A stretch of 64,000 nucleotides of DNA. It comes from Alphaproteobacteria bacterium. GTDB lineage: Bacteria; Pseudomonadota; Alphaproteobacteria; UBA2966; CAIVPW01. A model generated the notes under the pieces. That model was not told the DNA's origin and did no database searches. It was given only the letters and a program-made list of their open reading frames with translations. This document shows positions 5,641 to 28,400 of this stretch, one piece after another. The number at the start of each line of letters is the position of its first letter. The first letter of the stretch is position 1. The DNA lies in assembly GCA_947481575.1 (NCBI GenBank), contig CANKGV010000013.1, positions 1 through 64,000 on the forward strand, given 5' to 3'. A program made the translations under genes and the position numbers.

Positions 5641-6279
5641 ATGAACTCCCTCGACGTCACCGAGTATTTCGCAACCCTGGCCGCCCTCCCCGGCCGGGTA
5701 GAGATCAGCGACCGTGCAGGCGCGGCCGTTGATCTCTCCGATTTCTACGCCAAGGTGATTGCGTGGTGCCGCCAGACCCACGACAGCGGCAACACCATCC
5801 ACTTGGTCGGCAACGGCGGCTCGGCAGCCATCGCCAGCCACATGGCCACGGACTTCTGCAAGAACGGTGGCCTGCGCGCGCGCGCCCACAACGACGCGTC
5901 GATGCTGACCTGCCTCGCCAACGACTACGCGTATGAAGAAGTCTTCTCGCGCCAGCTCGCGATGCACGCCCGCCCGGGCGATCTCGTGCTTGCCATCTCG
6001 TCGTCGGGCAAATCAAAAAGCATCCTGAATGCGGTGAAGGCCGCGCGCGCCCAGCGCTGCCGCGTCGTCACCCTATCCGGGTTCCATTCCGACAACCCGC
6101 TGCGCGAGCTGGGGGATCTCAACGCCTTCGCCCCGGCGGCCGAATACGGCTTCGTCGAAATCGCCCACCTCACCCTGGTCCACGCCATGGTCGACCTCGC
6201 CAACGGCTGGTCGGCCTGGCCCGCCAACGAGCGCACGGTTCCGTCCCGCGCCGTCACTGTCGCCACCCTGGAGGCATAG
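5641..6279 (+). CDS. SIS-domain phosphosugar isomerase, GmhA-like
   Basis: 212 residues with one SIS (sugar isomerase) fold. The phosphate-binding signature GNGGSAAIASH starts near residue 58, and a second Ser-rich loop (SSSGKSKS) lies near residue 120. This is the layout of sedoheptulose-7-phosphate isomerase GmhA, which makes D-glycero-D-manno-heptose 7-phosphate. Placed between the HldE-like enzyme and an epimerase, it probably supplies the sugar phosphate used upstream. I cannot tell heptose from other ketose phosphates by sequence alone. Confidence 0.85.
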   Translation: MNSLDVTEYFATLAALPGRVEISDRAGAAVDLSDFYAKVIAWCRQTHDSGNTIHLVGNGGSAAIASHMATDFCKNGGLRARAHNDASMLTCLANDYAYEEVFSRQLAMHARPGDLVLAISSSGKSKSILNAVKAARAQRCRVVTLSGFHSDNPLRELGDLNAFAPAAEYGFVEIAHLTLVHAMVDLANGWSAWPANERTVPSRAVTVATLEA

Positions 6280-6281
6280 CA

Positions 6282-7295
6282 ATGCCGAAGTCGAATCCTT
6301 CCCGTCGCTGGAATGTTCTGGTCACCGGCGGCGCCGGCTACGTCGGCAGCCTGCTCGTGCCTAAGCTGTTGAAAGCAGGCCACAAAGTCACGGTCTTGGA
6401 CCTGTATCTGTACGGCGATGACGTGTTCTCGGAATACGTCGCAAACCGTTCACTCCGCGAAGTGAAGGGCGACATCCGCGATTCCGCCACCGTGGCCGAT
6501 GCGCTCACCGGCTGCGATGCGGTGATCCACTTGGCCTGCATCTCGAACGACCCGTCGTTCGAGCTCGATCCGGGCCTCGGCAAGTCGATCAATTTCGACG
6601 CGTTCCGGCCGCTGGTGCGGGCTTCCAAGAAGGCCGGCGTGAAGCGGTTCATCTATGCGTCGTCGTCGAGCGTCTATGGCATCAAGGAAGTCGACAACGT
6701 TACCGAAGACCTGACGCTCGAGCCGCTCACCGACTACTCGAAGTTCAAGGCAATGTGCGAGGAAGTGCTGGCGGAAGAACGCGCGCCGGGCTTCGTCACG
6801 CTGACCCTGCGCCCGTCCACGGTGTGCGGGTACGCCAAGCGCCTGCGTCTCGACCTCGCGGTCAACGTCCTCACGGCGCACGCCTATCACAACAAGCAGA
6901 TCAAGGTGTTCGGCGGCGCGCAGAAGCGCCCAAACTTACACATCGAAGACATGACCGACCTGTACCTGCAGGCCCTGCAGTGGGACGACGCGGTGATCGA
7001 CGGCAAGATCTTCAACGCCGGATACGAGAACCACACTGTGGCCCAACTTGCCGAGACGGTGCGCGACACCATCGGTGGCGGCATCGATATCGTCACCACG
7101 CCGTCCAATGACAACCGCTCGTATCACGTGTCTTCGGCCAAGCTGGAGCGCGAAACCGGCTTCCGCGCCACCCACTCGATCGCCGATGCCGTGCGCGATC
7201 TGGTCGCCGCGTTCGAGGCCGGCAAGGTGCCGAATCCGATGACCGATGCGGTCTACTACAACATCAAGACCATGCAGGCGGTCGGCCTGCACTAA
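6282..7295 (+). CDS. NAD-dependent sugar epimerase/dehydratase (extended SDR)
   Basis: 337 residues. The Rossmann motif GGAGYVG is at about 16-22, an acidic residue ends beta-2 (VLDLYLYGD), and the catalytic pair is YSKFK near residues 151-155 after a SSSSVYG motif. It acts on a nucleotide sugar, as epimerase, dehydratase or reductase. It starts 3 bases after the isomerase stop, implying co-translation. The exact reaction cannot be read from the sequence. Confidence 0.85.
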   Translation: MPKSNPSRRWNVLVTGGAGYVGSLLVPKLLKAGHKVTVLDLYLYGDDVFSEYVANRSLREVKGDIRDSATVADALTGCDAVIHLACISNDPSFELDPGLGKSINFDAFRPLVRASKKAGVKRFIYASSSSVYGIKEVDNVTEDLTLEPLTDYSKFKAMCEEVLAEERAPGFVTLTLRPSTVCGYAKRLRLDLAVNVLTAHAYHNKQIKVFGGAQKRPNLHIEDMTDLYLQALQWDDAVIDGKIFNAGYENHTVAQLAETVRDTIGGGIDIVTTPSNDNRSYHVSSAKLERETGFRATHSIADAVRDLVAAFEAGKVPNPMTDAVYYNIKTMQAVGLH

Positions 7296-7306
7296 GTCGC
7301 CGGCGG

Positions 7307-7332
7307 CCGGGGAGCGCGGGCGCGCTCCCCGG
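7307..7332. other. Intercistronic GC hairpin
   Basis: CCGGGGAGCGCG at 7307 pairs with CGCGCTCCCCGG ending at 7332. There is no T tract, so it is more likely an mRNA stability or attenuation element inside the operon than a terminator. Confidence 0.5.
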
Positions 7333-7365
7333 CGTGCGGTGGTTGCACGTAGGAGTTTGTTAACC

Positions 7366-8025
7366 ATGACCCTCCACAATCCCATCCGCACATCGGGAAG
7401 GAACACGTCTGTGCGGATCGGCTTGGACTTCGACAACACGCTGGCGGACTACGATGGCTTGTTCGCCACGCTAGCCCTGGAAGAGGGGCTGCTGCCGGGC
7501 CACGGGCCTGCTTCCAAGCGCGATATCCGCGACCGTGTGCGCGCGCTCCCCAATGGCGAAAGCGAATGGCAGCGGCTGCAGGCGATGGCCTACGGCCCGC
7601 GCATGAGCGAAGCCCGTCTGATGCCGGGCGCAGCGCGCTTCCTCGATCTCGCCCAGCGCCACGGTATCGAACTCACCATCGTCAGCCACAAGTCGCGCCG
7701 CGCGGCGTACCAGGGCGTCACCGACGACCTGCGCGACGCCGCTTCCCAATGGATGACAGCGCTTGGCTTCGGCGCCTATGGCCTGACACCGGATCGCGTC
7801 CACTTCGAAGACAGCCGCGCGGCCAAAGTCGAGCGCATCCACGAATTGGCTCTCACCCATTTCGTCGACGACCTGGAGGAAGTGTTCCGTCATCCGGACT
7901 TCCCCCCCGACGTCTCCGGAATCCTGTTCGACCCCCGCGGCATTGCCGCGCCCGGAGCCTTCCGGCGCTGCGCTACGTGGGACGAAATCGCACAAGCAAC
8001 CCTTGGAGCAGTCCATGCGTACTAA
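7366..8025 (+). CDS. HAD-family phosphatase
   Basis: 219 residues. Haloacid-dehalogenase motif I is DFDNT (Asp21, Asp23), motif II lies in the IVSHKSRR segment, and motif III is the acidic pair in FVDDLEE near 164. Such enzymes remove phosphate from sugar phosphates; in heptose pathways a HAD enzyme (GmhB) fills this step, but this protein is not clearly GmhB. The start chosen is the ATG at 7366, preceded by AGGAG at 7351; an open frame extends upstream into the epimerase gene and is not used. It overlaps the next gene by 11 bp. Confidence 0.8.
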   Translation: MTLHNPIRTSGRNTSVRIGLDFDNTLADYDGLFATLALEEGLLPGHGPASKRDIRDRVRALPNGESEWQRLQAMAYGPRMSEARLMPGAARFLDLAQRHGIELTIVSHKSRRAAYQGVTDDLRDAASQWMTALGFGAYGLTPDRVHFEDSRAAKVERIHELALTHFVDDLEEVFRHPDFPPDVSGILFDPRGIAAPGAFRRCATWDEIAQATLGAVHAY

Positions 8026-9070
8026 CCTCGCACTCCAGCAACAGGACATCGATGCGGTCTCCGTGACCGCCGGCATCCTGCTGGACTCACCGGTGCTGAG
8101 CGTCGAGCCCGTGCTCGGCGGCGGCAACAACCGGGTATACCGGCTGCAGACCGCCAACGGTCCGGTGGCGCTGAAGTTCTATCCGCGCCATCGCGAAGAT
8201 GTTCGCGATCGCCAGGGCGCCGAAGTCAGCGCCCTCAAGTTCCTCTCGCGCTACTCGGTCAGCCAGGTTCCGGAAGTCCTGGCCGAATCGCGCGAGGCCG
8301 GTTGCGCTGCTCTTACATGGATCGACGGCGGCCGCGTCTCCGAGCCCGCCGCGCGCGATGTCGACGATGCGCTCCGTCTGCTCGCAGAGTTGCGCGCCTT
8401 GTCGGAAGCCCATGGCGCCGACGTGCTGCGCGATGCTTCCGCCGCCACGTTCTCCGGCGCTCAGGTGGTTGCGCAGATCGAAGCACGCTTGGCCCGTATC
8501 CGCGGTATTGCCGACCAGCACCCGGAACTAAACCAGTTCCTGCGCAAGCAACTCTCGCCGGCGCTTCAGAAGATGGGCGCGTGGGCGCGCCGTGCCTACG
8601 CCCAAGCCGGCATCGACTTCGAGCTGGAGTTGGGCCCGAACGAGCGAACCCTGAGCCCATCCGACTTCGGCTTTCATAACACGCTGCGTCGCACCAACGG
8701 CCGCCTCGCGTTTGTCGACTTCGAGTACTTCGGTTGGGATGACCCGGCGAAACTCGTATCCGACTTCCTGCTGCACCCCGGCATGACGCTTACGCCGACC
8801 CTGAAGCAGCGGTTCTTGGCCGGCGCCAGCGCGGTGTTTGGCGACCGCCACGGCGATTTCACCGCCCGGTTCATGGCCTTGTACCCGCTGTATGGCCTGT
8901 GCTGGTGCCTGATCATGCTCAACGAATACTTCCCCGAGCGCTGGCTGCGCCGGGCGGTCAACTTCAAGGGCGAGGCCAAGGAGGCCGTGCAGGCCCGGCA
9001 ACTCGCCCGTTCCCGTGTCCTTCTGCAAAAGATGGTGGAGACCTATGAGTCCGGCCCAGACCTCGGCTAA
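8015..9070 (+). CDS. Aminoglycoside-phosphotransferase-fold kinase (sugar or small-molecule kinase)
   Basis: 351 residues with the APH/choline-kinase fold. It has a Gly-rich N-terminal loop (LGGGNNRVYRL), then the Brenner-like motif SDFGFHN near 215-221 with the catalytic Asp, and the metal-binding DFEY near 235. Antibiotic resistance is unlikely in this setting; phosphorylation of a cluster intermediate is more likely. The ATG at 8015 has TTGGAG upstream and overlaps the end of the phosphatase gene. The pairing of a phosphatase and a kinase suggests phosphate is moved between positions of the sugar. Confidence 0.75.
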   Translation: MRTNLALQQQDIDAVSVTAGILLDSPVLSVEPVLGGGNNRVYRLQTANGPVALKFYPRHREDVRDRQGAEVSALKFLSRYSVSQVPEVLAESREAGCAALTWIDGGRVSEPAARDVDDALRLLAELRALSEAHGADVLRDASAATFSGAQVVAQIEARLARIRGIADQHPELNQFLRKQLSPALQKMGAWARRAYAQAGIDFELELGPNERTLSPSDFGFHNTLRRTNGRLAFVDFEYFGWDDPAKLVSDFLLHPGMTLTPTLKQRFLAGASAVFGDRHGDFTARFMALYPLYGLCWCLIMLNEYFPERWLRRAVNFKGEAKEAVQARQLARSRVLLQKMVETYESGPDLG

Positions 9071-15170: not shown

Positions 15171-17558
15171 CTAGTTCGCGGCCACCGCTTCCCACATCCG
15201 CTCATACGCGTCTTCCATCGAACGCGCCCACCGGGCGGTGTCGAACAGCGGCGCGCCGCTACGCGCGGCGATCAGGTGGCGCTTCAGTTCGGCGATGCGT
15301 TCGGGCGAGCGGCCTAGCTCCGTGCTGATGCGTTCGTAGTCCGCCACGCTGGCCGCGGCTGTCTCTGGCGTACCGGCACCCACCACTAGGCTGGCGCCGA
15401 AGGCAGGACCCGGTCCGCTGAGGGTAATGACCGGCACGCCGGCAGCCAGCATCTCCAGGGCGGTGGCTCCGCCCTTGTAGTAGTACGTGTCGAAGGCGAT
15501 GTCGGCACAGCCCAAGCGGCGCACATGGTCGGCGTGGGGCACGGCGGGAGCCCAAACGATCCGGGCGAAGTCCACTCCGTAGCTCGCGGCTTCGCGGGCG
15601 AGATTGCGGCGCACGGTGTCGCCGGATTCCAGCATCCACAGGACCGAGTTGGGGACGGCCGCGAGCGTGCGCATCCAGGCGCCCCACAGCACCGGCTCCA
15701 ACTTCTGCGGCGCGTTGAACTGTGCGAACACCGTGCCGGAACGGGGCAGGCCCGCCTCGGCCCGGGTCATCGGCAGTGCATCGCTAGGCGGCGGCGGGAT
15801 TGCTGCCCATGGTCCGTCGATCATCGCCAAGTCGGCGGGCACCAGATCGCGCAGCGCCGGGTCGGCAAACGACACGGTGTCGGCGATCAGGTATCGGCAC
15901 CATTCCGCTCCAAGCGGCAGATTGTAGCCCAGCGTGTGGACCTGCACCGGGGCGGGCTCCAATGCCAGGATCTCGGGACGGGCGCCCTTGGTGTGGCTCG
16001 CCAGATCGACCAGCACGTGAATTCCGTCGGCGTTGATGGCGCGCGCGGCATCGGCGTGGCTGGTCCGGGCAAAGTCGCGGAAATGGTCGAAGGTGCGGCG
16101 GAACCAAGCCGTGTCCTGGTCTTGGGATTTCTCCGCGCACAGCGAATACGCGAACAGTTCGACCTTGCTGCGGTCGTGGGCTTCCAAGAGGCCACGGAAC
16201 AGCCGCGCCACCGAGTGGCTGCGGAAGTCGGGGGAGAGGTAGCCGACGCGCAGCTTGCCGGTGCGCGGCGCATAGGTGAACGGCAGGCCCTGCTTCAACG
16301 CCGCAACGCTGGCGGCGATCGCCACCGCCTCGGCGCGGATCGATCCCATCTGCACGTCGAACGGAGCCCCGGTGCCGGTCAGGCCGAACGGGGGCGTGGA
16401 GGTACGGCGGCCGGCAGCCAATTCCGTGCGGGTGTTGGCGACCAAGCGGGCAATAAGGCCGTCGAGCCCTCGCCAATCGCACAGCTTGAGTTGGGTATTG
16501 ATGAGTTGGGCATCCACCGCTGCCAGACCCGGCCGCAACTCGGCGGCGCGGCGCAACGCGGCGCGGGCTTCGTCGAACCGCCCCATGCTTTGCAGCAGCA
16601 TGCCGTAGTGGAAGCGGATGTCGGCATTGTCGGGTGCGGCCTCGATCGCGCGCTCGTAGGCCAAGCGGGCGTCGTTCACCCTTCCCAGCGCCGTCAAGGA
16701 TGCGGCGCGGTTGGCATATACCGGAGCATTGCCGGGACGGGCCGCCAGGGCTGTGTCGAACGCGGCGATCGCATCCTCGTGGCGGAATTCGGCCTGTAGC
16801 GCACAACCGCGCGCCATGAGCAGGTCGGCGGCGAGCGCGGTGTCGTTGGGCGTTAGTGCCGCTGCACGTTCGAACCATGGCAGCGCCCGGACCGATTCGC
16901 CGGCGGCAACGAGTGCGCGGGCGAGGGGGGCGGCAACGCGGTCGGGCTCGCGCGCGGCAGCGCGGGTGAGCGGACCAATCGCCTCGACCGGCTGCCGGAG
17001 CATCAAGTGGGCGGCGCCGGTAAGAAAGTCGACTTGGGAGTTCTCCGGTTCGCGTGCTGCAAGGCGGCGCAACAGCGGCAGCGCATCTGCCGCGGCGTCG
17101 CGCGCCAGCAGCAGCGTGGCAAGGCGGAGGAGGGCTGTGGCGTCTTCCGGATCGATCCGCAGCGCGGCGCGGAAGCTGGCCTCGGCCTCGGTGGTGCGGC
17201 CGAGGCCCTGCAGCAGTGCGCCAAGATTGAGATGCGGCGCCGGCAGGATCGGGTTGACGGCGATGGCCTCGCGGTAGTGTTGCTCGGCCTCACCCGAACG
17301 CCCCAGCGCCTGCAGCACCGCGCCCAAGTTGGCGTGGGTAGAAGCGTGGCGCGGATCGTGGGCCAGGACACGTTGATACGCTGCGACCGCTTCGACGTTG
17401 CGGCCAGCGTGCATCAACAAGACGCCCAGGCGGAATGCTGCGTCGATGTCGGCGGGGTCGTTTTCCACCGCGATACGGTACAGCGCTTCGGCAGGGGTGG
17501 CATGACCACCTTCCTGCAACCGCACTGCTTCGCCCACGGCACTGCCATCGGAGCTCAT
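15171..17558 (-). CDS. TPR/GT41 (SPINDLY/OGT-like) protein O-glycosyltransferase 1
   Basis: 795 residues. Residues about 1-370 are tandem TPR units (YRIAVENDPADIDAAFRLG and so on), the protein-binding part. Residues about 410-795 form the GT41 catalytic domain: VGYLSPDFRSHSV, VDLASHTKGARPE, FAQFNAPQKLEP and the nucleotide-binding end FDTYYYKGGATALEML. GT41 enzymes attach a sugar from a nucleotide donor to Ser/Thr in the cytoplasm. Caulobacter FlmG, with the same TPR-plus-transferase plan, glycosylates flagellins. It diverges from flagellin 1 and converges on the sugar cluster, so flagellins are the likely acceptors. A possible weak sigma-54 motif on this strand lies at 17629-17644. Confidence 0.85.
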   Translation of the reverse strand: MSSDGSAVGEAVRLQEGGHATPAEALYRIAVENDPADIDAAFRLGVLLMHAGRNVEAVAAYQRVLAHDPRHASTHANLGAVLQALGRSGEAEQHYREAIAVNPILPAPHLNLGALLQGLGRTTEAEASFRAALRIDPEDATALLRLATLLLARDAAADALPLLRRLAAREPENSQVDFLTGAAHLMLRQPVEAIGPLTRAAAREPDRVAAPLARALVAAGESVRALPWFERAAALTPNDTALAADLLMARGCALQAEFRHEDAIAAFDTALAARPGNAPVYANRAASLTALGRVNDARLAYERAIEAAPDNADIRFHYGMLLQSMGRFDEARAALRRAAELRPGLAAVDAQLINTQLKLCDWRGLDGLIARLVANTRTELAAGRRTSTPPFGLTGTGAPFDVQMGSIRAEAVAIAASVAALKQGLPFTYAPRTGKLRVGYLSPDFRSHSVARLFRGLLEAHDRSKVELFAYSLCAEKSQDQDTAWFRRTFDHFRDFARTSHADAARAINADGIHVLVDLASHTKGARPEILALEPAPVQVHTLGYNLPLGAEWCRYLIADTVSFADPALRDLVPADLAMIDGPWAAIPPPPSDALPMTRAEAGLPRSGTVFAQFNAPQKLEPVLWGAWMRTLAAVPNSVLWMLESGDTVRRNLAREAASYGVDFARIVWAPAVPHADHVRRLGCADIAFDTYYYKGGATALEMLAAGVPVITLSGPGPAFGASLVVGAGTPETAAASVADYERISTELGRSPERIAELKRHLIAARSGAPLFDTARWARSMEDAYERMWEAVAAN

Positions 17559-17897: not shown

Positions 17898-18719
17898 ATG
17901 GTGATGTCCGTCAACACCAACGTCGGCTCGATGATTGCGTTGCAGAACCTGAGCCAGACGACTCGGCAGTTGGAGACCACGCAGTTGCGGGTCACGACCG
18001 GCCTGAAGGTGAACGGCCCCAAGGACGACGCGGCCACCTTCGCGATCGCCCAGAACATGCGGGGCGACATCGCCGGATACGGGTCGGTCGGCACCTCGCT
18101 GGCGATGGGCGAATCGGTGGTGAACGTCGCCATCGACGCCGCCAAGTCGATCGCCGATCTGCTGACCGAGATGAAGGCGAAGGCAGTGCAGGCGAGCCAG
18201 GGCGGCATGGACGCCGACTCCTACATCTCGCTGCACCAGGATTTCACGGCGCTACGCGATCAGATCGATACCATCGTCAACACTGCCGAGTTCAACGGCA
18301 AGAACTTGATCACCAACGGTGCGACGTCGTTCAACGTGCTCACCACCATCGATGGCAGCACCATCACGGTTTCGGCGCAGAACATCGATCCGACGACCTT
18401 GGCGATTTCCGCCACTGGCGCGGCGTTGTCGGATGCCACCATGGCGGCATCCGCGTTGCTCGCGATCAATTCGGCGATCGTCACGGTCTCGAATGCACTG
18501 GCGGCGCTCGGCGCTTCGGCCAAGCGCGTCGAAATCCAGAAGGACTTCACCGGCAAGCTGGTCGATGTGCTGAAGCAGGGCGTTGGCAATCTCGTCGATG
18601 CCGACCTCGCCAAAGAAAGCGCGATGCTGCAGTCGTTGCAGATCAAGCAGCAACTCGGCGTGCAGGCGCTGTCGATCGCCAATCAGAATCCGCAGAGCAT
18701 CCTCGCTCTGTTCCGCTAA
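17898..18719 (+). CDS. Flagellin 1
   Basis: 273 residues, short as is usual for alphaproteobacterial flagellins: D0/D1 ends with only a small central part and no D2/D3 domains. The N-terminus (MSVNTNVGSMIALQNL, then LRVTTGLKVNGPKDDAATFAIAQNMRGD in type) and C-terminus (IKQQLGVQALSIANQNPQ, LFR end) are classic. The middle (residues about 145-190) is rich in Ser and Thr, suiting O-glycosylation. The start is the ATG at 17898 with GAGAGG upstream; an open frame before it is not coding. The filament subunit is exported through the flagellar type III system. Followed after 25 bp by flaF1. Confidence 0.96.
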   Translation: MVMSVNTNVGSMIALQNLSQTTRQLETTQLRVTTGLKVNGPKDDAATFAIAQNMRGDIAGYGSVGTSLAMGESVVNVAIDAAKSIADLLTEMKAKAVQASQGGMDADSYISLHQDFTALRDQIDTIVNTAEFNGKNLITNGATSFNVLTTIDGSTITVSAQNIDPTTLAISATGAALSDATMAASALLAINSAIVTVSNALAALGASAKRVEIQKDFTGKLVDVLKQGVGNLVDADLAKESAMLQSLQIKQQLGVQALSIANQNPQSILALFR

Positions 18720-18744
18720 CCCGTCCCTTTAGGAGGCGATCCCG

Positions 18745-19080
18745 ATGTCTATGGAAATGGCACTCTACGAGGCGGTGGACGACCGCCGCCGCGACGAACG
18801 CGAGATCTTCTGGAAGGTCACGCGCGCATTGGAAGACGTGTGCGACGCGGACGCCAGCGATCCGGCGCGCGACGAAGCGCTCTATCGCAACAAGATGCTG
18901 TGGTCGGTCCTGCAGGACAACCTGTGCATGGACGAGAACCAGTTGCCCGACACGCTGAAGCAGCAGCTCATTTCGCTCGCCAGCTGGGTGGAAGGCTACA
19001 CCGCCAAGGTGCGCGAGGGCGCCGGCAACGTGGGCGCGCTGATCTCGGTCAACAACGCGATCATGGAAGGCCTAGTCTAA
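18745..19080 (+). CDS. flaF: FlaF-family flagellin chaperone/regulator 1
   Basis: 111 residues, all helical. FlaF signature: an N-terminal ERE-type segment, RNKMLWSVLQDNL near 50, then LISLASWVEGYT near 75-86, and a terminal ISVNNAIMEGL. In Caulobacter FlaF is required for flagellin synthesis and secretion and opposes FlbT. It follows flagellin 1 directly and precedes a terminator, so the pair is one transcript. One of four FlaF paralogues in the window. Confidence 0.88.
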   Translation: MSMEMALYEAVDDRRRDEREIFWKVTRALEDVCDADASDPARDEALYRNKMLWSVLQDNLCMDENQLPDTLKQQLISLASWVEGYTAKVREGAGNVGALISVNNAIMEGLV

Positions 19081-19108
19081 ACCAAACCCTATCGCTTCCA
19101 AGTAATTA

Positions 19109-19140
19109 CCGGGCGCCCTAGTGGCGCCCGGTTCGTTTTT
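19109..19140 (+). terminator. Rho-independent terminator after flaF1
   Basis: Stem CCGGGCGCC (19109-19117) with GGCGCCCGG (19123-19131), 5-base loop, then TTCGTTTTT. Confidence 0.9.
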
Positions 19141-19171
19141 GCCTGGTCGGCCGGAGTTTTACTTGCTGCGG

Positions 19172-19225
19172 CGGCAGTTATGTCCCCGGGAAATACTTTC
19201 TTCCGCAGCCCGGCAAAACTTGGTC
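19172..19225. promoter_or_regulatory. Imperfect FlbD/ftr-like sites upstream of flagellin 2
   Basis: CGGCA half-sites at 19172 and 19211 keep a perfect left arm, but their right arms differ from TGCCG. A further CCCGGCAAGG half-site follows at about 19230. They lie 110-160 bp upstream of the sigma-54 promoter. Confidence 0.45.
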
Positions 19226-19332
19226 GTTGCCCGGCAAGGACGGCGCCGGCGCCCACTAAAGAGGCGGTAACGCCGCCCCAGCGGCGCCGAAAAGACAAGC
19301 AAAACCAACGGGTTCACCGAGTTATCCGCAGT

Positions 19333-19348
19333 TGGCACGCGGGTTGCG
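19333..19348 (+). promoter_or_regulatory. Sigma-54 promoter of flagellin 2
   Basis: TGGCACGCGGGTTGCG: consensus -24 hexamer, TTGC core, correct spacing. Predicted start near 19359, about 56 bases before the ATG. Confidence 0.85.
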
Positions 19349-19414
19349 AATACACGGTGCGAAGCCACTGCTCCAAATGGGAGCGATGGTCCTCGCGAAT
19401 GAGGAGCTACTACG

Positions 19415-20242
19415 ATGGTTATGTCCGTCAATACCAACGTCGGCGCGATGATCGCGCTCCAGAACCTGGCCAAGACGACCCGGGAACTGGAGACGACGCA
19501 GCTGCGCGTCACGACGGGTTTGAAGGTGAACGGCCCGAAAGACGATGCCGCCACCTTCGCCATCGCCCAGAACATGCGCGGCGACATCGCCGGGTACGGG
19601 GCGGTGGGAACGTCGCTGGCGATGGGTGAGTCGGTGGTCAACGTGGCCATCGACGCGGCGAAGTCCATCGCAGACCTCCTGACCGAGATGAAGGCGAAGG
19701 CGGTCCAAGCCAGCCAAGGCGGCATGGACACCGACTCCTATGTCTCGCTGAACCAGGATTTCACGGCGCTGCGCGATCAGATCATCACGATCGTCAACAC
19801 CGCCGAGTTCAACGGCAAGAACCTGATCACCCAAGGCGCCTCGGTGTTCAATGTGCTCAGCACGATCGATGGCAGCACGATTACGGTCGCCGCCCAGCAG
19901 ATCGACCCGACTTCGATTGGCCTATTCGGCCTCGGTACGGCGGCCGGCCTTGGCAATGCCACGTCTGCGGCAACCGCACTGCTGGCGATCAACTCAGCGA
20001 TCATCACGGTGTCGAACGCCCTTGCGGCGCTCGGTGCCTCGGCGAAGCGCGTTGAAATTCAGCGCGACTTTACGGGCAAGCTGAGCGACGTGCTGAAGCA
20101 GGGCGTCGGCAACTTGGTGGACGCCGACCTCGCCAAGGAAAGCGCGATGCTGCAGTCGCTGCAGATCAAGCAGCAGCTTGGCGTGCAGGCCTTGTCGATC
20201 GCCAACCAGAATCCGCAAAGCATTCTTGCCCTGTTCCGGTAG
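19415..20242 (+). CDS. Flagellin 2
   Basis: 275 residues, very close to flagellin 1 over both ends (MSVNTNVGAMIALQNLAKTT; IANQNPQSILALFR). It differs mainly in the central part (residues about 150-190), where a FGLGTAAGLG insertion replaces the shorter stretch. Own sigma-54 promoter and own downstream flaF, so it is a second complete flagellin-FlaF module. Confidence 0.96.
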   Translation: MVMSVNTNVGAMIALQNLAKTTRELETTQLRVTTGLKVNGPKDDAATFAIAQNMRGDIAGYGAVGTSLAMGESVVNVAIDAAKSIADLLTEMKAKAVQASQGGMDTDSYVSLNQDFTALRDQIITIVNTAEFNGKNLITQGASVFNVLSTIDGSTITVAAQQIDPTSIGLFGLGTAAGLGNATSAATALLAINSAIITVSNALAALGASAKRVEIQRDFTGKLSDVLKQGVGNLVDADLAKESAMLQSLQIKQQLGVQALSIANQNPQSILALFR

Positions 20243-20295
20243 CGGAACGCGGGCTTTCCCTGATCTTGCACTGACCCGAACGGAAGGAGCCGACC

Positions 20296-20619
20296 ATGTA
20301 CCACACCGAAATCGAAACCGCCGAAGCCCGCCGCGTCGCTGAGCGCGAGGCGTTTGCCAGCGTGACCGCCAATCTCGTCCATGCCGAGCAGGACGACACC
20401 GGTAAGCGCCAGGCTCTGGTAACCAACCGCCTGTTCTGGGGCGTGCTCAAGGACAACCTGTTCTCGGAAGAGAACAAGCTGACCAACGACCTCAAGGGCC
20501 AGATCCTGACCTTGGCCACCTGGGTCGAGGGCTACACCGACAAGTTGCTGCGCGGTGATGCCCAGGAGATCCGCCCGCTGATCAGCGTGAACTCGACCAT
20601 CATGTCGGGTCTCGCCTAA
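20296..20619 (+). CDS. flaF: FlaF-family flagellin chaperone/regulator 2
   Basis: 107 residues with the FlaF pattern NRLFWGVLKDNL, LTLATWVEGYTDKLLRG and ISVNSTIMSGL. AAGGAG lies upstream of the ATG. It is the partner of flagellin 2 by position. Its N-terminal third differs from flaF1, where specificity for a particular flagellin might lie. Confidence 0.87.
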   Translation: MYHTEIETAEARRVAEREAFASVTANLVHAEQDDTGKRQALVTNRLFWGVLKDNLFSEENKLTNDLKGQILTLATWVEGYTDKLLRGDAQEIRPLISVNSTIMSGLA

Positions 20620-20639
20620 CCACAATCCGCGCTGCGCCG

Positions 20640-20659
20640 GCGGGGGCTGCGGCCCCCGC
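20640..20659 (+). terminator. GC hairpin after flaF2
   Basis: An 8-bp stem (GCGGGGGC with GCCCCCGC, loop TGCG) 20 bases after the stop. No T tract, so termination is uncertain. Confidence 0.4.
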
Positions 20660-20719
20660 GGCACGGTGCTCCCAAATCTCGAAAATTCCGTCCGAGCCGG
20701 GCCATTGTTGCCGCCTCCC

Positions 20720-20753
20720 CGGCAGAAACTGCCGCCGTCGGCAAATCCTGCCG
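20720..20753. promoter_or_regulatory. Two perfect FlbD/ftr-like palindromes
   Basis: CGGCA-GAAAC-TGCCG at 20720-20734 and CGGCA-AATCC-TGCCG at 20739-20753, 19 bp apart and so on nearly the same helix face. They begin 103 bp before the -24 element at 20856. Confidence 0.75.
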
Positions 20754-20855
20754 ACCGGCCGGCGCCCTTCGGCTTTCGGCCGGTAACCATTGCGATCCCC
20801 GCGTTCTCTGGGATTGCGACTCCGGCGACTCCCCTAAGCGAACCCTGGTTGCGGC

Positions 20856-20871
20856 TGGCACGGCCTTTGCT
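20856..20871 (+). promoter_or_regulatory. Sigma-54 promoter of the mini-ORF/flagellin 3-4-5 operon
   Basis: TGGCACGGCCTTTGCT matches the consensus at all invariant positions with correct spacing. Predicted start near 20882. Confidence 0.87.
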
Positions 20872-20948
20872 CCCTTGCTGCCGGGCCAGAAGTGCCCAGA
20901 AGGCAAAACGCCTTCGCAAGTTCGACTTAGAACAAGGAGACCGAAGAA

Positions 20949-21158
20949 ATGGTCATGTCCATCAACTCACAGGCTGCGGCGTTTGCCGCCCTGCGCAATG
21001 TGGGTCTGTTTGGCGGCCGCGACCGTAAGGTCCAGTCCGCGAACGACCGGCATCCCTCGCACCAGCGCTCCGACGACGGGCACGAAGCCAATCGGCGCCG
21101 CCACGAACCGGCTGAAGCCGAGCACGCGTCTCACGTCTCGCACGGCCACGGCCGCTAG
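20949..21158 (+). CDS. Small ORF with a flagellin-like N-terminus and a His/Arg-rich tail
   Basis: 69 residues. The first 18 (MVMSINSQAAAFAALRNV) parallel the flagellin start (MVMSVNTNVGAMIALQNL), but the rest is hydrophilic and rich in His, Arg, Asp and Glu, with no D1 helix and no flagellin C-terminus. It has the best ribosome site of the region (AAGGAG, 20933-20938), a consensus sigma-54 promoter and two perfect FlbD-like palindromes, and it heads the operon of flagellins 3-5. It looks expressed, not degenerate. Possible roles are an exported small substrate, a decoy for FlaF/FlbT, or a leader peptide setting translation of the next gene. No known family recognised. Confidence 0.65.
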   Translation: MVMSINSQAAAFAALRNVGLFGGRDRKVQSANDRHPSHQRSDDGHEANRRRHEPAEAEHASHVSHGHGR

Positions 21159-21213
21159 ACGCGCACGTCCCCCGATAACGCTGAACCCGATTTAGAGCGA
21201 GGAATTACTCACC

Positions 21214-22026
21214 ATGATGTCCGTCAACACCAACCCCGGCGCAATGGTCGCGCTGCAGAGCCTGTCCTCCACGAACAAGTCCCTGGAAACCACGCAGCTG
21301 CGGATTACGACCGGCCTGAAGGTCAACGGCCCCAAGGACAACGCGGCCACCTTCGCCATTGCCCAGAACATGCGCGGCGACATCGCCGGCCTGGGCGCCG
21401 TAAAGACCAACCTGGCGCTCGGCCAGTCGATCACCAACGTCGCCATCGACGCGGGCAAGGCGGTTGCCGATCTGCTCATCGAGATGAAGGCCAAGACCAT
21501 CCAGGCAAGCCAAGAAGGCCTGGACACGGACTCCTACACGGCGCTGAACCAGGAGTTCACGTCGCTCCGCGCGCAGATCGACTCGATCGTTCAGACCGCC
21601 GATTTCAACGGTAAGAACCTGATCACCAATGCTGCCACCAACCTGAAGGTGCTCAGCACCATCGACGGCAGCACGATCACGGTAACGGCGCAGTCGATCG
21701 ACGGTACAACGCTGGCGATCCATACAGCGGCCCTGACCAATGCAACCGTCGCCGCCACGGCGCTCAGCGCAATCTCGGCGGCGATCATCACGGTTTCGAA
21801 CGCCCTGGCATCGCTTGGTTCGGCCGCAAACCGATTGGACATCCAGGCCGAGTTTACCGGCAAGTTGCAGGACATCCTGAAGCAGGGCGTCGGCAACCTG
21901 GTGGACGCGGACCTCGCCAATGAAAGCGCCAACCTGCAAGCGCTGCAGATCAAGCAGCAGTTGGGCGTGCAAGCTCTGTCGATCGCGAACGCGGGTCCGC
22001 AAAGCATCATGGCGCTCTTCCGCTAG
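21214..22026 (+). CDS. Flagellin 3
   Basis: 270 residues with the full short-flagellin pattern (MSVNTNPGAMVALQSLSSTN; IKQQLGVQALSIANAGPQSIMALFR). It and the next two genes form a tandem trio of close paralogues that differ chiefly at residues about 145-190. Start ATG 21214 with GCGAGGAA upstream; a second ATG follows immediately. Transcribed from the promoter at 20856 behind the mini-ORF. Confidence 0.95.
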   Translation: MMSVNTNPGAMVALQSLSSTNKSLETTQLRITTGLKVNGPKDNAATFAIAQNMRGDIAGLGAVKTNLALGQSITNVAIDAGKAVADLLIEMKAKTIQASQEGLDTDSYTALNQEFTSLRAQIDSIVQTADFNGKNLITNAATNLKVLSTIDGSTITVTAQSIDGTTLAIHTAALTNATVAATALSAISAAIITVSNALASLGSAANRLDIQAEFTGKLQDILKQGVGNLVDADLANESANLQALQIKQQLGVQALSIANAGPQSIMALFR

Positions 22027-22051
22027 GCGCTGGGCGGAGGAGTATCCGATC

Positions 22052-22867
22052 ATGGGAATGTCGATTAACACCAACCCCGGCGCGATGGTGGCGCTGCAGA
22101 GTCTCGGCAGCACCAACAAAGCGCTTGAGACGACGCAGATGCGCATCACGACGGGGCTCAAGGTCAACGGCCCCAAGGACAACGCCGCAACGTTCGCTAT
22201 CGCACAGAACATGCGTGGCGATATCGCCGGCCTGTCCGCAGTAAAGACCAACCTGGCGCTCGGCCAGTCGATCACCAACGTCGCGATCGACGCTGGTAAG
22301 GCGGTTGCCGATCTTCTGGTCGAAATGAAGGCCAAGACGATTCAGGCCAGCCAGCAAGGTCTCGACACCGACTCCTACACGGCGCTGAACGAGGAATTCA
22401 CCTCGCTCCGCGCGCAGATCGACTCGATCGTCACCACCGCCGAGTTTAACGGCAAGAACCTGATTACCAACGGCGGCTCCAACCTGAAGGTGCTCAGCAC
22501 CGTCGACGGCAGCACCATCACGGTGACGGCGCAGGCGATCGACGGAACCACGCTCGCCATTCACACGGCGACCCTTACCAATGCGACGGTAGCGGCAACG
22601 GCACTGACTGCGCTCGACTCGGCGATCATCAGCGTATCCAACGCGCTGGCCTCGCTCGGCTCGGCCGCGAACCGCCTGGATATCCAGGCGACCTTCACGG
22701 GCAAGCTGCAGGACATCCTGAAGCAAGGTGTCGGCAATCTGGTGGACGCAGATCTCGCTCAGGAGAGCGCGAACCTGCAAGCCTTCCAGATCAAGCAGCA
22801 GCTAGGCGTTCAGGCATTGGCGATCGCCAACGCCGGGCCGCGCAGCATCATGGCCCTGTTCCGCTAA
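22052..22867 (+). CDS. Flagellin 4
   Basis: 271 residues, near-duplicate of flagellin 3 (MSINTNPGAMVALQSLGS start, LFR end). The ATG at 22052 is preceded by a strong GGAGGAG. It lies 25 bp after flagellin 3 with no promoter between, so co-transcribed. The open frame that reaches back into flagellin 3 is not used. Confidence 0.95.
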   Translation: MGMSINTNPGAMVALQSLGSTNKALETTQMRITTGLKVNGPKDNAATFAIAQNMRGDIAGLSAVKTNLALGQSITNVAIDAGKAVADLLVEMKAKTIQASQQGLDTDSYTALNEEFTSLRAQIDSIVTTAEFNGKNLITNGGSNLKVLSTVDGSTITVTAQAIDGTTLAIHTATLTNATVAATALTALDSAIISVSNALASLGSAANRLDIQATFTGKLQDILKQGVGNLVDADLAQESANLQAFQIKQQLGVQALAIANAGPRSIMALFR

Positions 22868-22900
22868 CGCAATCTCGCACCGAATTTAGGAGAGCCCTCC

Positions 22901-23716
22901 ATGTCTATGTCGATCAACACCAACCCGGGCGCGATGATCGCGTTGCAGAGCCTGTCGTCCACGAACCGGCAGCTCGAAACGACTCAGATGCGCATCACGA
23001 CGGGCCTCAAGGTCAACGGCCCGAAAGACAACGCCGCTACGTTTGCTATCGCCCAGAACATGCGCGGCGACATCGCCGGCCTGTCCGCGGTGAAGACCAA
23101 CCTGGCCCTGGGCCAGTCGATCACCAACGTCGCGATCGACGCCGGCAAGGCGATCGCCGATCTGCTGGTCGAAATGAAAGCCAAAGCGATTCAGGCAAGC
23201 CAGGATGGCCTCGACTCCGACTCGTACGTCGCCCTGAACCAGGAGTTCACTTCGCTCCGCTCCCAGATCGACTCGATCGTTTCGACGGCGGAGTTCAACG
23301 GCAAGAACCTGATCACCGCCGGCGCCGCCGACTTGAAGGTGCTGAGCACCGTCGATGGCAGCACCATCACGGTGACCAAGCAGGTGTTCCACCAGACGAC
23401 GCTGGCGATTGCCACGCTGACTCTCACCACCGCCAACAACGCCAGCCAGGCCTTGGTCGCCATCGACTCGGCGATCGTAACGGTCTCGAAGGGCCTGGCC
23501 TCGCTCGGTTCCGCGGCCAACCGCATCGACATCCAGAGCGAGTTCACCGGCAAGTTGCAGGACATCCTGAAGCAGGGCGTCGGCAATCTGGTGGACGCGG
23601 ACCTGGCCCAGGAAAGCGCGAACTTGCAGGCCTACCAGATCAAACAGCAGCTGGGCGTGCAGGCCTTGGCGATCGCCAATTCCGGTCCGCAGAGCATTCT
23701 GGCCTTGTTCCGGTAG
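22901..23716 (+). CDS. Flagellin 5
   Basis: 271 residues, third member of the tandem trio, with a distinct centre (TKQVFHQTTLAIATLTLTTANNAS). TAGGAG precedes the ATG. Last gene of the operon, followed by a strong terminator at 23744. Confidence 0.95.
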   Translation: MSMSINTNPGAMIALQSLSSTNRQLETTQMRITTGLKVNGPKDNAATFAIAQNMRGDIAGLSAVKTNLALGQSITNVAIDAGKAIADLLVEMKAKAIQASQDGLDSDSYVALNQEFTSLRSQIDSIVSTAEFNGKNLITAGAADLKVLSTVDGSTITVTKQVFHQTTLAIATLTLTTANNASQALVAIDSAIVTVSKGLASLGSAANRIDIQSEFTGKLQDILKQGVGNLVDADLAQESANLQAYQIKQQLGVQALAIANSGPQSILALFR

Positions 23717-23743
23717 CAGCCCCGTACGTAACACTGCGAATCG

Positions 23744-23771
23744 AGGGGCTGGGCAACCAGCCCCTCTTTTT
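23744..23771 (+). terminator. Rho-independent terminator after flagellin 5
   Basis: A 9-bp stem AGGGGCTGG/CCAGCCCCT closed by a GCAA tetraloop, then CTTTTT. Confidence 0.92.
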
Positions 23772-23877
23772 GGTAGGATCGCGTTAACCAAACCTGCGCC
23801 CGGCAGTACGCCCAAAGCGTGGCTTTTCCCGCCTTGCACCCTCAAAACGTGGCGCAAGGCAGCCAGGTGGCTACACC

Positions 23878-24693
23878 ATGGTGAATTCGATCAATACTAA
23901 CCCCGGCGCCGCTGCGGGTTTGCAGCAGGTCCACAAGACCAGCACCTTCCTGGAAAAGACCCAGGAACGTATCGCGACCGGCAAGAAGGTTAACAGCCCC
24001 AAGGACGATGCCGCGATCTATGCGATCGCTCAGCAGTTGACCGGCGACTTGGCCGGTGCCGCCGCGGTCCGCGGCAACTTGGCGTTCGGCGAGGCCGCGA
24101 CCAGCGTCGCGACCACTGCCGGCACCGCCATTTCCGATCTTCTCATTGAAGCCAAGGGCAAGGCCGTGCAGGCTGCGCAACCGGGCCTCGACGCCGCATC
24201 CAGCCAAGCGCTGCAAAACGATTTCGCGCAGATCACCGCGCAGATCGACAGCATCGCCCAGGCGGCGAGTTTCGGCAGCACCAACTTGGTGAAGCCGGGT
24301 TCCCAGAATCTCGATGTCGTAGCGGGGGAGAACGGCGAGAAAGTCACCGTTCAGGCCGCCGACCTTACCTCCAACGGTCTCGGCATTTCCGGAGCCTCGC
24401 TGGCCACGCCGGCGCAGGCCCAGAATGCGGTGACCAGCATCGACACGGCGCTGAAGAGCGCCAACAGCGCGGTCGCCAATTTCGGCACCGCGGCGAGGAG
24501 CATCGAGACCAACACGACCCTAAACACCCAGATGTCCGACACCCTGAAGCAGGGCATCGGCAATCTGGTGGACGCTGATTTGGGCCAAGAGAGCGCGAAA
24601 CTTCTTGCCGGGCAGGTACGCCAGCGCCTCGGCATCCAGTCGCTGTCGATCGCCAACTCGGCGCCGCGTAACATCGCGTCGTTGTTCGAATAA
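23878..24693 (+). CDS. Flagellin 6 (divergent)
   Basis: 271 residues, still a flagellin (MVNSINTNPGAAAGLQQVHKTS; RIATGKKVNSPKDDAAIYAIAQ; IQSLSIANSAPRNIASLFE) but clearly unlike the other six. It ends LFE rather than LFR/LFH, has Ala-rich D1 helices, and its centre is AGENGEKVTVQAADLTSNG. It is isolated by a terminator upstream (23744-23771) and a hairpin downstream, and I find no sigma-54 motif in the 161 bases before it. A separately timed or minor flagellin is likely. Confidence 0.93.
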   Translation: MVNSINTNPGAAAGLQQVHKTSTFLEKTQERIATGKKVNSPKDDAAIYAIAQQLTGDLAGAAAVRGNLAFGEAATSVATTAGTAISDLLIEAKGKAVQAAQPGLDAASSQALQNDFAQITAQIDSIAQAASFGSTNLVKPGSQNLDVVAGENGEKVTVQAADLTSNGLGISGASLATPAQAQNAVTSIDTALKSANSAVANFGTAARSIETNTTLNTQMSDTLKQGIGNLVDADLGQESAKLLAGQVRQRLGIQSLSIANSAPRNIASLFE

Positions 24694-24700
24694 TCGCGTT

Positions 24701-24727
24701 CCAGGGGGTGGTTTGCCCACCCCCTGG
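24701..24727 (+). terminator. Terminator-like hairpin after flagellin 6
   Basis: An 11-bp stem CCAGGGGGTGG/CCACCCCCTGG with loop TTTGC, 8 bases after the stop. No T tract. Confidence 0.55.
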
Positions 24728-24886
24728 CGACCGCAGCCCGGTAGGGCTCCGCTGGGTCAGGATTGCCTGGTACCCGGCATTTACTTCCCGCTAACCGAGT
24801 TTCCGTAAGCTGCCTGATGTCCGGGAGCGGGCGCAGGCTGTCTGCGTTCGGGCTGGATTTGCGCCGAAATGCGCCGGATTCCGCAA

Positions 24887-24902
24887 TGGTCCGGGGCTTG
24901 CA
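24887..24902 (+). promoter_or_regulatory. Sigma-54 promoter of the FlaF3-GT41 operon
   Basis: TGGTCCGGGGCTTGCA: GG-N10-GC spacing and TTGCA core. A partial FlbD-like half-site (CGGCA at 24775) lies 112 bp upstream. Predicted start near 24913. The rest of 24728-25006 holds nothing else that I can identify. Confidence 0.68.
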
Positions 24903-25006
24903 TTGAGCAAGCGAGCATAGTTAACGGCGTGAACTGACGAACAGCACAACCGGCGCCAACCGGACGTGCTGCGCGGCATCGCGGAGTGTGGGAGCAAGGT
25001 TCGAGC

Positions 25007-25414
25007 ATGTCGGTCGACAGGTACAAATCCGCCCTCACGGTGACCGAGGAGCCGCGACAGACCGAGTACCGGCTGTTTGCGCAGGTCACCCGGTCGTTGA
25101 TGGACGTCCATGCCAAGGGCGACAAGGGCAAGAAGTTCATCGAGGCGGTGGATTGGAACCGCCGCATGTGGCTCACGCTGCAGATGGACTTGGCGTCCGA
25201 CACCAACGGGCTGGCGGACGAACTCAAGGCGCAACTAATCTCGGTTGCGATCTGGGTCGATAAGCATACCAGCGCTGCCCTGCGGGGTGATGCCGACCTT
25301 GAGCCGCTGATCACCGTTAATCGTACGATTATGGAGGGACTGGCCGGCGCGCCGGCCAAGCCGCAGACCGCGGCCGTACGTCCGGCGTTCGCGTCGGGCG
25401 GCACCTCGGCCTAG
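25007..25414 (+). CDS. flaF: FlaF-family flagellin chaperone/regulator 3
   Basis: 135 residues. FlaF core: TEYRLFAQVTRSLMDV, NRRMWLTLQMDL, LISVAIWVDKHT and TVNRTIMEGL, with a 20-residue Ala/Pro-rich C-terminal extension. Unlike flaF1 and flaF2 it is separated from the nearest flagellin by a hairpin and has its own promoter, and it is joined 10 bp upstream of a GT41 transferase. This ties flagellin handling to glycosylation. The ATG at 25007 is preferred to an upstream GTG. Confidence 0.85.
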   Translation: MSVDRYKSALTVTEEPRQTEYRLFAQVTRSLMDVHAKGDKGKKFIEAVDWNRRMWLTLQMDLASDTNGLADELKAQLISVAIWVDKHTSAALRGDADLEPLITVNRTIMEGLAGAPAKPQTAAVRPAFASGGTSA

Positions 25415-25424
25415 CGGGTTCGCC

Positions 25425-28400
25425 GTGAACGTTGCCATCCCGCACCCGCGCGATCCGCGCCCGGATCCGCAGCCCCGTCCGGCCGACGCCGCATTTACGG
25501 CCGGCCTGCAGCACCACACCGCCGGCGACCTGGACCGCGCTGAAACAGCGTACCGCCGCGCCGTCGCCATCGATCCGCGCCACATCGGTGCCCTGTTCAA
25601 TCTTGCGGCGCTCCACGGATCACGCGGCGATCTGGATGAGGCGGGGCGCTGCTATCGCTACGTCTTAGAGATCGCGCCCGCCGACGCCGACGCTCTTTCG
25701 AACTACGGCAATTTGCTGCAGCACGGAGGCAAGCTGGACGCGGCAGAAGACTGCTACCGCCGCGCCCTGGCGGCGAAGCCGGCGCACGCGATGGCTCATA
25801 CGAACCTCGCGCAGCTGCTAGCGGCAACCAATCGTCCCGACGAAGCTGAACGGCATTTCCGCCGCGGCATGGCGATCGCGCCGCGCTCGCCCGCCGGGCC
25901 GGCCGGCCTGGGTGGCCTGCTGTGGCGGCAAAATCGGCTCGACGAGGCCCGCCTCGCGTTTTGCCAAGCGATTGTTCTGGATCCCGGCGATGCCGACAGC
26001 CATTGCGGCCTCGGCAATGTGTGCCTCGACCTCGGCGACTATGAGCGCGCCGAGGAGGAATACTGCTTGGCGATCCGCCTGCGTCCGAATTGGGCCGACG
26101 CGCATTTCAACATCGGCATGCTGTTTGACCGCAGCAACCGGCGCAAAGAAGCAAAAGATGCGTTCCGCGAAGCTCTGTCGCTGCGCCCCGACTACGTCAA
26201 GGCGCTCTGCCGTCTGGGCGAGTTGGAGGCCGAAGACGGCGAGTTTGACGCGGCCGAACAACACCTGAGCGCGGCCGCCGAACACGGCCAGCTTGGTGGT
26301 GAATCGGAATTCCACTACGGCACGCTGCATCACCACAAGAAGAACTACACCAAGGCCATCGCCCATTTCGAAAAGGCGTTGGAACTGGGCTGCCGGTTGC
26401 CGGAGGTTTTCAACAATCTCGGCAACTCCCACTTGGAAGCGGGAAACGACGACCAGGCCGAGGCGGCTTTCAAGAGCGCGATTGAGCTCAAGCCCGACTT
26501 CGCTCACGCGTACAACAACCTCGGCAAGCTGTACCGCGGGCAGCGCAAGATCGACTTGGCTGAACAGCACTACCGCAAAGCGGTGGAGCTACGGCCCGAT
26601 TTCCCGGTCGCCGAGGGAAACCTCGGCGCGCTGCTGGTCGAAAAGGGCCACTACAGCGAGGCGGCCGCACTGTTCGAGCGCGCGCTCGAGCGGGAGCCGA
26701 GCTTCGCGCTCTACAACGGCTTGGGCCTCATGTACCAGGGCCTGAACGATAACGCCCGCTCACTGGAGTGCTACGCCAAAGCTCTGGAGTTGGCGCCGGA
26801 CAATCCCCAGGTGCTGAACAACCTCGCCATTGCCTATCAGAACATGGGCCGCAGCGAAGAGGCGGTCCGCACCTATAACAAGGTGTTCGACGTCAATCCG
26901 CTGCAGTGCGAGGCCTACTACAACATGGCCAACCTGCTGCTCTCGATGACCAAGTACGACGAAGCGGTCATCGTCTATCGCAAGTGCCTACAGATCAACC
27001 CGCACCACAGCGGCGTGTACCCCTACTTGGCCCATGCGCTGATGCACCAGTGTGCGTGGGACAATCTGCAGCGCGTGACGGAGCAAGTGATCGCCAACAC
27101 CGAGCGCGAACTAGCGGCGGGCGGCGGCGTTTCCGCCACGCCGTTCGGCCTGCTCAGCCTGCCGACATCCGTGGACCTGCGGGCGCGGGTTACCGACCGG
27201 GTGGCGCAGAAGATCGAAGACTCCGTGCAGTCGACACGGGAGCGCAACCCGCTCACCTACGCCCCGCGCGGCAAGAAGCTGAAGATCGCCTACGTCTCGC
27301 CGGACCTGCGCAATCACTCGGTGGCGTTCTTGTTCAACAACGTGCTGCGCAACCACGACCGCAATCGGTTCGAGGTGCACGGGTACATGGTCGCGAACTA
27401 CGAGCGCGATGACATGACCGAGTTCTTCAAGCACGAATTCGACAGCTTCACCGACCTCAAGGACACGCCGTTGCTGGATGCCACCCGCAAGGTGAACGGC
27501 GACGGCATCAACATCATGGTCGACCTCGCCGGCCACACGCGCGGCGCGTGGATGCACTTGTTCGCCATGCACCCGGCGCCGATCCAGGCCACCACCATCG
27601 GTTACGCTTCGTCGCTCGGCGGCAAACTCGCCGACTACATGATCACCGACGAAACGCTGTGGCCGGAGCATGAGGCAAGCTACTGCAGCGAGAAGTTCGT
27701 GTACCTGCCCCACACGGTGATGCCGGGCTCGCCCAAGGAAGTCGCCGACCACACGTTCACCCGTGAGGAGATGGGGCTGCCGGAAACGGGCGTCGTGTTC
27801 GCCAACTTCAACGGCCACTACAAGTTCGATCCCGAGACGTATGCGGTCTGGATGCGTATCCTGAAGCAGGTGCCGGGCAGCGTTCTGTGGATGATGCAGG
27901 GCTCCGCCACCAGCCGCGCCAACCTGATCCGCGAAGCGGCACTGCGCGGCGTGCCTGAACACCGCCTAGTGTTTGCCAGCACGATCCGCGGCCCGTACCA
28001 CATGGCGCGCTTACCGCTGGCCGATATCTGCCTCGACAGCTTCTACCATGTCGGCGGCGCAACCACCGTCGATGCGTTGTGGCGCGGCGTGCCGGTCGTC
28101 GTCACGGCGGGTACCAACGTCAGCAACCGCACCGGCCGCAACCTTCTGGAAGTGGTCGAAATGCCGGAATTGATCGGCGCGACCATGCACGACTACGAGC
28201 GCGTCGCCGTCGATCTGGCGCTGAACCCGGCCAAGCTGGCTGCCACCCGCGCCAAACTTTCGGCCAAAGTCAAAACCTCTCCGTTGTTCGACATCAAGTT
28301 GTTCACGCGCCATTTGGAGAGTGCGTACGAGATGATGTGGGAGAACTACGAAGCAGGGCGGCCACCGCAGTTGCTGCGCGTGCCGGCGATCATCCAATGA
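25425..28400 (+). CDS. TPR/GT41 (SPINDLY/OGT-like) protein O-glycosyltransferase 2
   Basis: 991 residues with a GTG start. Residues about 25-550 form a long TPR array of some 14-15 units; residues about 610-985 are the GT41 domain (IAYVSPDLRNHSVAFLF, VDLAGHTRGAWMHL, FANFNGHYKFDP, LDSFYHVGGATTVDALW). The domain ends with the family's usual ESAYEMMWENY helix. It lies 10 bp after flaF3 and overlaps the next GT41 gene by ATGA, so all three are co-expressed. Likely acceptors are flagellins; the donor is probably the product of the sugar cluster. Confidence 0.87.
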   Translation: MNVAIPHPRDPRPDPQPRPADAAFTAGLQHHTAGDLDRAETAYRRAVAIDPRHIGALFNLAALHGSRGDLDEAGRCYRYVLEIAPADADALSNYGNLLQHGGKLDAAEDCYRRALAAKPAHAMAHTNLAQLLAATNRPDEAERHFRRGMAIAPRSPAGPAGLGGLLWRQNRLDEARLAFCQAIVLDPGDADSHCGLGNVCLDLGDYERAEEEYCLAIRLRPNWADAHFNIGMLFDRSNRRKEAKDAFREALSLRPDYVKALCRLGELEAEDGEFDAAEQHLSAAAEHGQLGGESEFHYGTLHHHKKNYTKAIAHFEKALELGCRLPEVFNNLGNSHLEAGNDDQAEAAFKSAIELKPDFAHAYNNLGKLYRGQRKIDLAEQHYRKAVELRPDFPVAEGNLGALLVEKGHYSEAAALFERALEREPSFALYNGLGLMYQGLNDNARSLECYAKALELAPDNPQVLNNLAIAYQNMGRSEEAVRTYNKVFDVNPLQCEAYYNMANLLLSMTKYDEAVIVYRKCLQINPHHSGVYPYLAHALMHQCAWDNLQRVTEQVIANTERELAAGGGVSATPFGLLSLPTSVDLRARVTDRVAQKIEDSVQSTRERNPLTYAPRGKKLKIAYVSPDLRNHSVAFLFNNVLRNHDRNRFEVHGYMVANYERDDMTEFFKHEFDSFTDLKDTPLLDATRKVNGDGINIMVDLAGHTRGAWMHLFAMHPAPIQATTIGYASSLGGKLADYMITDETLWPEHEASYCSEKFVYLPHTVMPGSPKEVADHTFTREEMGLPETGVVFANFNGHYKFDPETYAVWMRILKQVPGSVLWMMQGSATSRANLIREAALRGVPEHRLVFASTIRGPYHMARLPLADICLDSFYHVGGATTVDALWRGVPVVVTAGTNVSNRTGRNLLEVVEMPELIGATMHDYERVAVDLALNPAKLAATRAKLSAKVKTSPLFDIKLFTRHLESAYEMMWENYEAGRPPQLLRVPAIIQ

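Follow-up and report, generated by a model that had tools for sequence, protein, structure and literature searches.

What does an open reading frame (ORF) that begins like a flagellin, and soon ceases to resemble one, do at the head of a flagellin operon? The ORF in question, 69 codons long with an ATG start (20949–21158, + strand; translation MVMSINSQAAAFAALRNVGLFGGRDRKVQSANDRHPSHQRSDDGHEANRRRHEPAEAEHASHVSHGHGR), lies in a 64-kb stretch of alphaproteobacterial DNA, hereafter the window, which belongs to a genome assembly of 2.45 Mb in 47 contigs. It is preceded by a FlaF gene and followed by flagellin genes starting at 21214, 22052 and 22901, a divergent flagellin gene at 23878 and a further FlaF gene at 24986. 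A preliminary description had placed a 69-residue ORF at the head of this three-flagellin operon, and in this respect it was confirmed, coordinates and signals included; the AAGGAG site, the consensus sigma-54 promoter and the two FlbD-like palindromes that it reported are all real at the positions listed here:

20296–20619, + strand: FlaF gene (PF07309, 2.4e-21), adjoining the ORF on its upstream side
20720–20734, no strand assigned: FlbD-like palindrome 1, CGGCAGAAACTGCCG, of the GGCA-N5-TGCC type
20739–20753, no strand assigned: FlbD-like palindrome 2, CGGCAAATCCTGCCG, of the GGCA-N5-TGCC type
20856–20871, + strand: sigma-54 promoter, TGGCACGGCCTTTGCT, a full match to TGGCACG-N4-TTGCW
20883–20897, + strand: leader hairpin 1, a variant, GGGC-CAGAAGT-GCCC
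20899–20915, + strand: leader hairpin 2, canonical, GAAGGC-AAAAC-GCCTTC, of the alphaproteobacterial flagellin-leader type
20934–20939, + strand: Shine-Dalgarno sequence AAGGAG, 9 nt ahead of the ATG of the ORF
20949–21005, + strand: codons 1–19 of the ORF, homologous to the starts of flagellin genes
21006–21158, + strand: His/Arg/acidic tail of the ORF, unrelated to flagellin, with codon periodicity and predicted to be disordered
21159–21213, + strand: spacer of 55 nt, which holds the Shine-Dalgarno sequence of the next flagellin (GAGGAA at 21199)
21214–22026, 22052–22867 and 22901–23716, + strand: the three tandem flagellins of the operon
23878–24693, + strand: divergent flagellin, after the operon
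44149–45745, + strand: flagellin-flbT-flaF operon, in which flagellin 44149 has a canonical twin-hairpin leader

The sigma-54 site is the sole one in the 400 nt preceding flagellin 21214 and, together with the GGCA-N5-TGCC palindromes upstream of it, constitutes a flagellin promoter of the sigma-54/FlbD kind. Such palindrome pairs are located at about −150 to −280 upstream of most sigma-54-driven flagellins in relatives (metagenome-assembled Alphaproteobacteria in the named collection), and the FlbD-like palindromes of the ORF are therefore ordinary. Neither a sigma-70 promoter nor a terminator was found between the ORF and flagellin 21214, and the absence of a terminator there speaks against an attenuator. 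At the sequence level the ORF has the arrangement of a leader peptide: it is short and lies between the structural genes and their promoter, and no further promoter was found before those genes. As promoter and leader are both intact and flagellin 21214 showed no other promoter ahead of it, the ORF would open the fla 21214-22052-22901 mRNA as its first cistron, presumably co-transcribed and translated in step with the flagellins.

Many flagellin genes of Alphaproteobacteria carry in their 5′ UTR, before the ribosome site, twin hairpins of the form stem-GC-ANAAY-GC-stem. In 18 aligned leaders, picked without the ORF and including the leader of flagellin 44149, pairing was observed in 87.6% of cells compared with 72.7% in shuffles; the covariation score was 0.423 (0.170 when shuffled), was matched by none of 500 shuffles and was lost when pairing partners were slid. 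The best match in the window to the covariance model based on these leaders is that of flagellin 44149 (31 bits, this leader being itself included in the model). The leader of the ORF gave the second best match in the 64 kb (20898–20922; 14.9 bits, a weak E of 0.2), which falls on the single canonical hairpin, hairpin 1 departing from the consensus. The twin-hairpin leader in the window occupies 44086–44121, and others were seen at loci L070, L078, L081, L087, L094, L096, L097, L100, L103, L108, L109, L112–L119, L140 and L177–L191. Rfam searches at E up to 5 gave no family match to the window stretch above chance level, and at the gathering threshold none matched five loci that carry the leader; both results extend to the flg-Rhizobiales RNA motif, a candidate structured 5′ leader proposed for flagellar genes.

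In three Caulobacter genomes the twin-hairpin element is found before structural-type flagellins and not before the divergent NQPAL flagellin, which, from its sequence, we take to be FljJ. FlbT is reported to bind flagellin 5′ UTRs and, acting with FljJ, to keep the structural flagellins from being translated until the secretion of FljJ (PMC3930126, PMC7591256). The twin-hairpin leader is a candidate FlbT binding element, and FlbT is encoded in the window at 45025.

Similarity to flagellin genes continues into the ORF itself. Compared with 74 flagellin starts, the DNA of codons 1–19 (57 nt) reached a best score of 40 (null maximum 16 ± 3.8; 0 of 200 nulls), and the leader plus 15 nt scored 36 against flagellin heads (null 17 ± 3.6; 0 of 200), the similarity of the leader alone to flagellin leaders being modest (3 of 200 nulls). 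The motif with which flagellin N-termini begin, S-[IV]-N-[TS] ... A..AL, is present, and on a start-motif profile, which was composed after the ORF had been seen and is hence indicative only, the ORF scored 13, level with the highest-scoring true flagellins; among the fetched loci no non-flagellin frame exceeded 10. The first 18 residues had been said to copy the flagellin start; that they are flagellin-like is borne out by the null comparisons, but "copy" is slightly generous, as the closest flagellin start is identical at 9 of 15 residues and the near-universal NTN is here NSQ. When promoter, leader and start are taken jointly, the best matches are the genome's own flagellin 44149 and L080:4228, with z of about 10–12. 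The latter heads the flagellin array of an order-level relative in which the genes are arranged much as here (FlaF-FlaF-[sigma-54, leader]-fla-fla-fla-divergent fla), and it directly follows the leader. Since homology to the heads of flagellin genes spans promoter, leader and start, the resemblance is best read as common descent and not as the mimicry of the flagellin N-terminus originally proposed.

After codon 19 the picture changes. The account of the tail as His/Arg/acidic and lacking flagellin structure was upheld: residues 20–69 did not match flagellin in any of six frames, and no frame-shifted or inverted flagellin remnant was detected at the protein (best domain E 0.39) or DNA level. 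The Flagellin_N and Flagellin_C helical domains (PF00669/PF00700) are absent from the ORF, which has no Pfam match at E ≤ 1, and no Pfam or NCBIfam family scored above cut-off for the tail. Plasmids and viral contigs contained no homologs of ORF or tail, and an origin of the tail by copying from elsewhere in the genome was discarded, there being no other occurrence of it in the assembly. A single-sequence AlphaFold model predicts a helix at residues 5–16, a short helix at 46–51 and coil for the rest, with a mean pLDDT of 61 (low confidence).

An open tail by itself proves nothing, because 70% of simulated tails remain open. G+C counts at the three codon positions are 41/25/41 (of 50 each); none of 5000 simulated open tails is as skewed, and on account of this periodicity the tail probably is, or recently was, coding. 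The codon score of the ORF falls within the range of real genes and is reached by 1.9% of shadow ORFs, the codon statistics being derived from the 64-kb window alone. The strand of the periodicity signal is unproven because the antisense frame fits it about equally (0.297 vs 0.222); an antisense ORF of 60 aa at 20967–21149 matches no family. The ORF had been thought selected and expressed. Its sequence signals agree with expression, and the argument for selection reduces to the codon periodicity of the tail.

The same data bear on whether the ORF is a functionless relic, left over from the beginning of what was once a flagellin gene or from duplication of a flagellin 5′ end, and still open by chance. 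We regard this as less likely than not, and nearly as likely as the leader cistron discussed below. A head that is plainly flagellin-derived, with conserved flagellin residues altered (NTN to NSQ), is what a relic would show; the openness of most simulated tails, the restriction of the ORF to one genome and the presence of many tandem, recombination-prone flagellin genes (10 in 2.45 Mb) also favour it. It sits poorly with a tail that has strong codon periodicity yet matches no flagellin in any frame, and with a ribosome site and promoter that are both intact. It is far less probable, to the point of being very unlikely, that the ORF is an assembly chimera in which a flagellin head was joined to unrelated sequence, near-identical flagellin genes having misled a metagenome-type assembly. 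Flagellin paralogs here are up to 90% identical and the contig of a relative breaks at the equivalent flagellin, but the tail is found nowhere else in the assembly and the gene order is sensible on both sides, with FlaF before and flagellins after.

Other copies of the ORF were sought in 76 named flagellin loci, in genomes of the family and the order, and in 385 alphaproteobacterial genomes, a set drawn from outside the genus, and none was found; nor did the named loci, or the family and order genomes, show a comparable short ORF ahead of a flagellin. With this coverage the absence carries little weight. The relative's contig mentioned above, L197 (G007:C95), is from a freshwater member of the family, the one in which the syntenic end of the array was seen, and has flagellin, divergent flagellin and FlaF at 6253–8410 in the order of the window; it ends inside the first flagellin, short of the position of the ORF. 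In other genomes, the genes with a readable flagellin-like start behind twin-hairpin leaders, such a start being found by a simple script in about half of the loci, are flagellins and never a short ORF. Weak class-wide tblastn matches (E 0.002–0.005) fell on tail-type sequence in ORFs that do not begin like flagellins and were attributed to composition.

Of the three roles first suggested for the ORF, namely an exported passenger, a decoy or sensor for FlaF/FlbT, and a leader peptide, the last, acting in cis, fits best. We tentatively favour, at somewhat below even chances, a lineage-specific leader cistron derived from a flagellin gene and placing the operon under FlbT-type control from its front end. 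The head of a flagellin gene, comprising FlbD-like sites, sigma-54 promoter, leader RNA, ribosome site and the first ~18 codons, would have been retained, and the flagellin body lost, with a new charged, probably disordered frame of ~50 codons in its place. The polycistronic mRNA, whose later flagellin genes lack such a leader of their own, would thereby open with an FlbT-type leader and a flagellin-type start of translation, and repression or release at the leader and first codons may govern the stability and translation of the whole message. Both the action of FlbT on this leader and the retention of the short cistron for the sake of its leader role are presumed here. The homology of the head, the gene order of L080, the covarying hairpins with their placement before structural-type flagellins in Caulobacter, FlbT at 45025 and the coding-like tail count for the leader cistron; the presence of the ORF in a single genome, the weak covariance match of its leader with its variant first hairpin, the modest leader-only similarity and the comparable fit of the tail's periodicity to the antisense frame count against it. 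So does the 55-nt spacer, which provides no overlap for tight translational coupling. No overlap with the next start, stall motif or attenuator was found for the ORF, and no convincing sequestration of the start of flagellin 21214 was seen in folding. Because of the lack of start sequestration and the spacer, control in cis would operate mainly via mRNA stability or release of the leader.

A miniature flagellin acting in trans, whose first helix would bind FlaF or FlbT as a decoy, a sensor or an FljJ-like co-repressor, or which would be exported as a peptide, is improbable. The fuller version, in which the first helix engages FlaF/FlbT, the His-rich tail has another task and a non-assembling mimic tunes flagellin synthesis, is a shade more improbable still. 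The precedent is FljJ of Caulobacter, a regulatory flagellin paralog that is bound by FlbT and whose secretion relieves repression (PMC7591256), and the FlaF and flbT genes of the window and the predicted helix at 5–16 are in keeping with such a role. FljJ is full length, whereas the ORF retains nothing of flagellin after residue ~18, matches no Pfam family and has no ortholog among the genomes searched; the Caulobacter FljJ-like gene lacks the twin-hairpin leader and the ORF has a leader of the flagellin type; and the confidence of the structure model is low. There is no specific support for a decoy or sensor of FlaF/FlbT or for an exported peptide. The exported passenger is the weaker proposal, because the export-relevant part of flagellin reaches past the first ~18 residues.

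The leader cistron can be set beside known systems. With Caulobacter fljK-type flagellin genes, which have an FlbD/sigma-54 promoter and an FlbT-regulated 5′ UTR, the ORF has in common the promoter with its FlbD-like sites, a leader hairpin, the ribosome site and the opening codons, but it continues after codon ~19 with about 50 unrelated residues and has no flagellin body. Like FljJ, the partner of FlbT, it combines a flagellin-like N-terminus with a multi-flagellin cluster in a genome with flaF and flbT; FljJ is ~278 aa long, and the ORF, at 69 aa and without flagellin domains, is not of the FljJ type. Similar to bacterial leader peptides and upstream ORFs, it is a short first cistron between promoter and structural genes, although, unlike them, it descends from the very gene family whose members follow it. 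If the role in cis is real, the ORF represents a natural split of flagellin expression signals (leader and first codons) from flagellin itself and would test whether leader and start suffice for FlbT-type control; a role in trans would make it a minimal version of the FljJ co-repressor that does not assemble, and a relic would show that flagellin arrays can lose members yet keep their control regions.

Ten flagellin matches were detected in the genome, in the window (17898–25414 and 44149–45745) and on G000 contigs C5 and C6. Flagellin and FlaF genes alternate in the window, which has four FlaF genes and a single FlbT gene, the one FlbT match in the genome. The divergent flagellin, at the end of the array, is 47% identical to flagellin 21214, has a counterpart in the corresponding position of both L079 and L080, and may be the equivalent of FljJ. 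The flagellin array is flanked by large genes at 15171–17558 and 25425–28400 which, from translations read by eye, appear to encode TPR-repeat proteins with a glycosyltransferase part and recall FlmG-type flagellin glycosylation.
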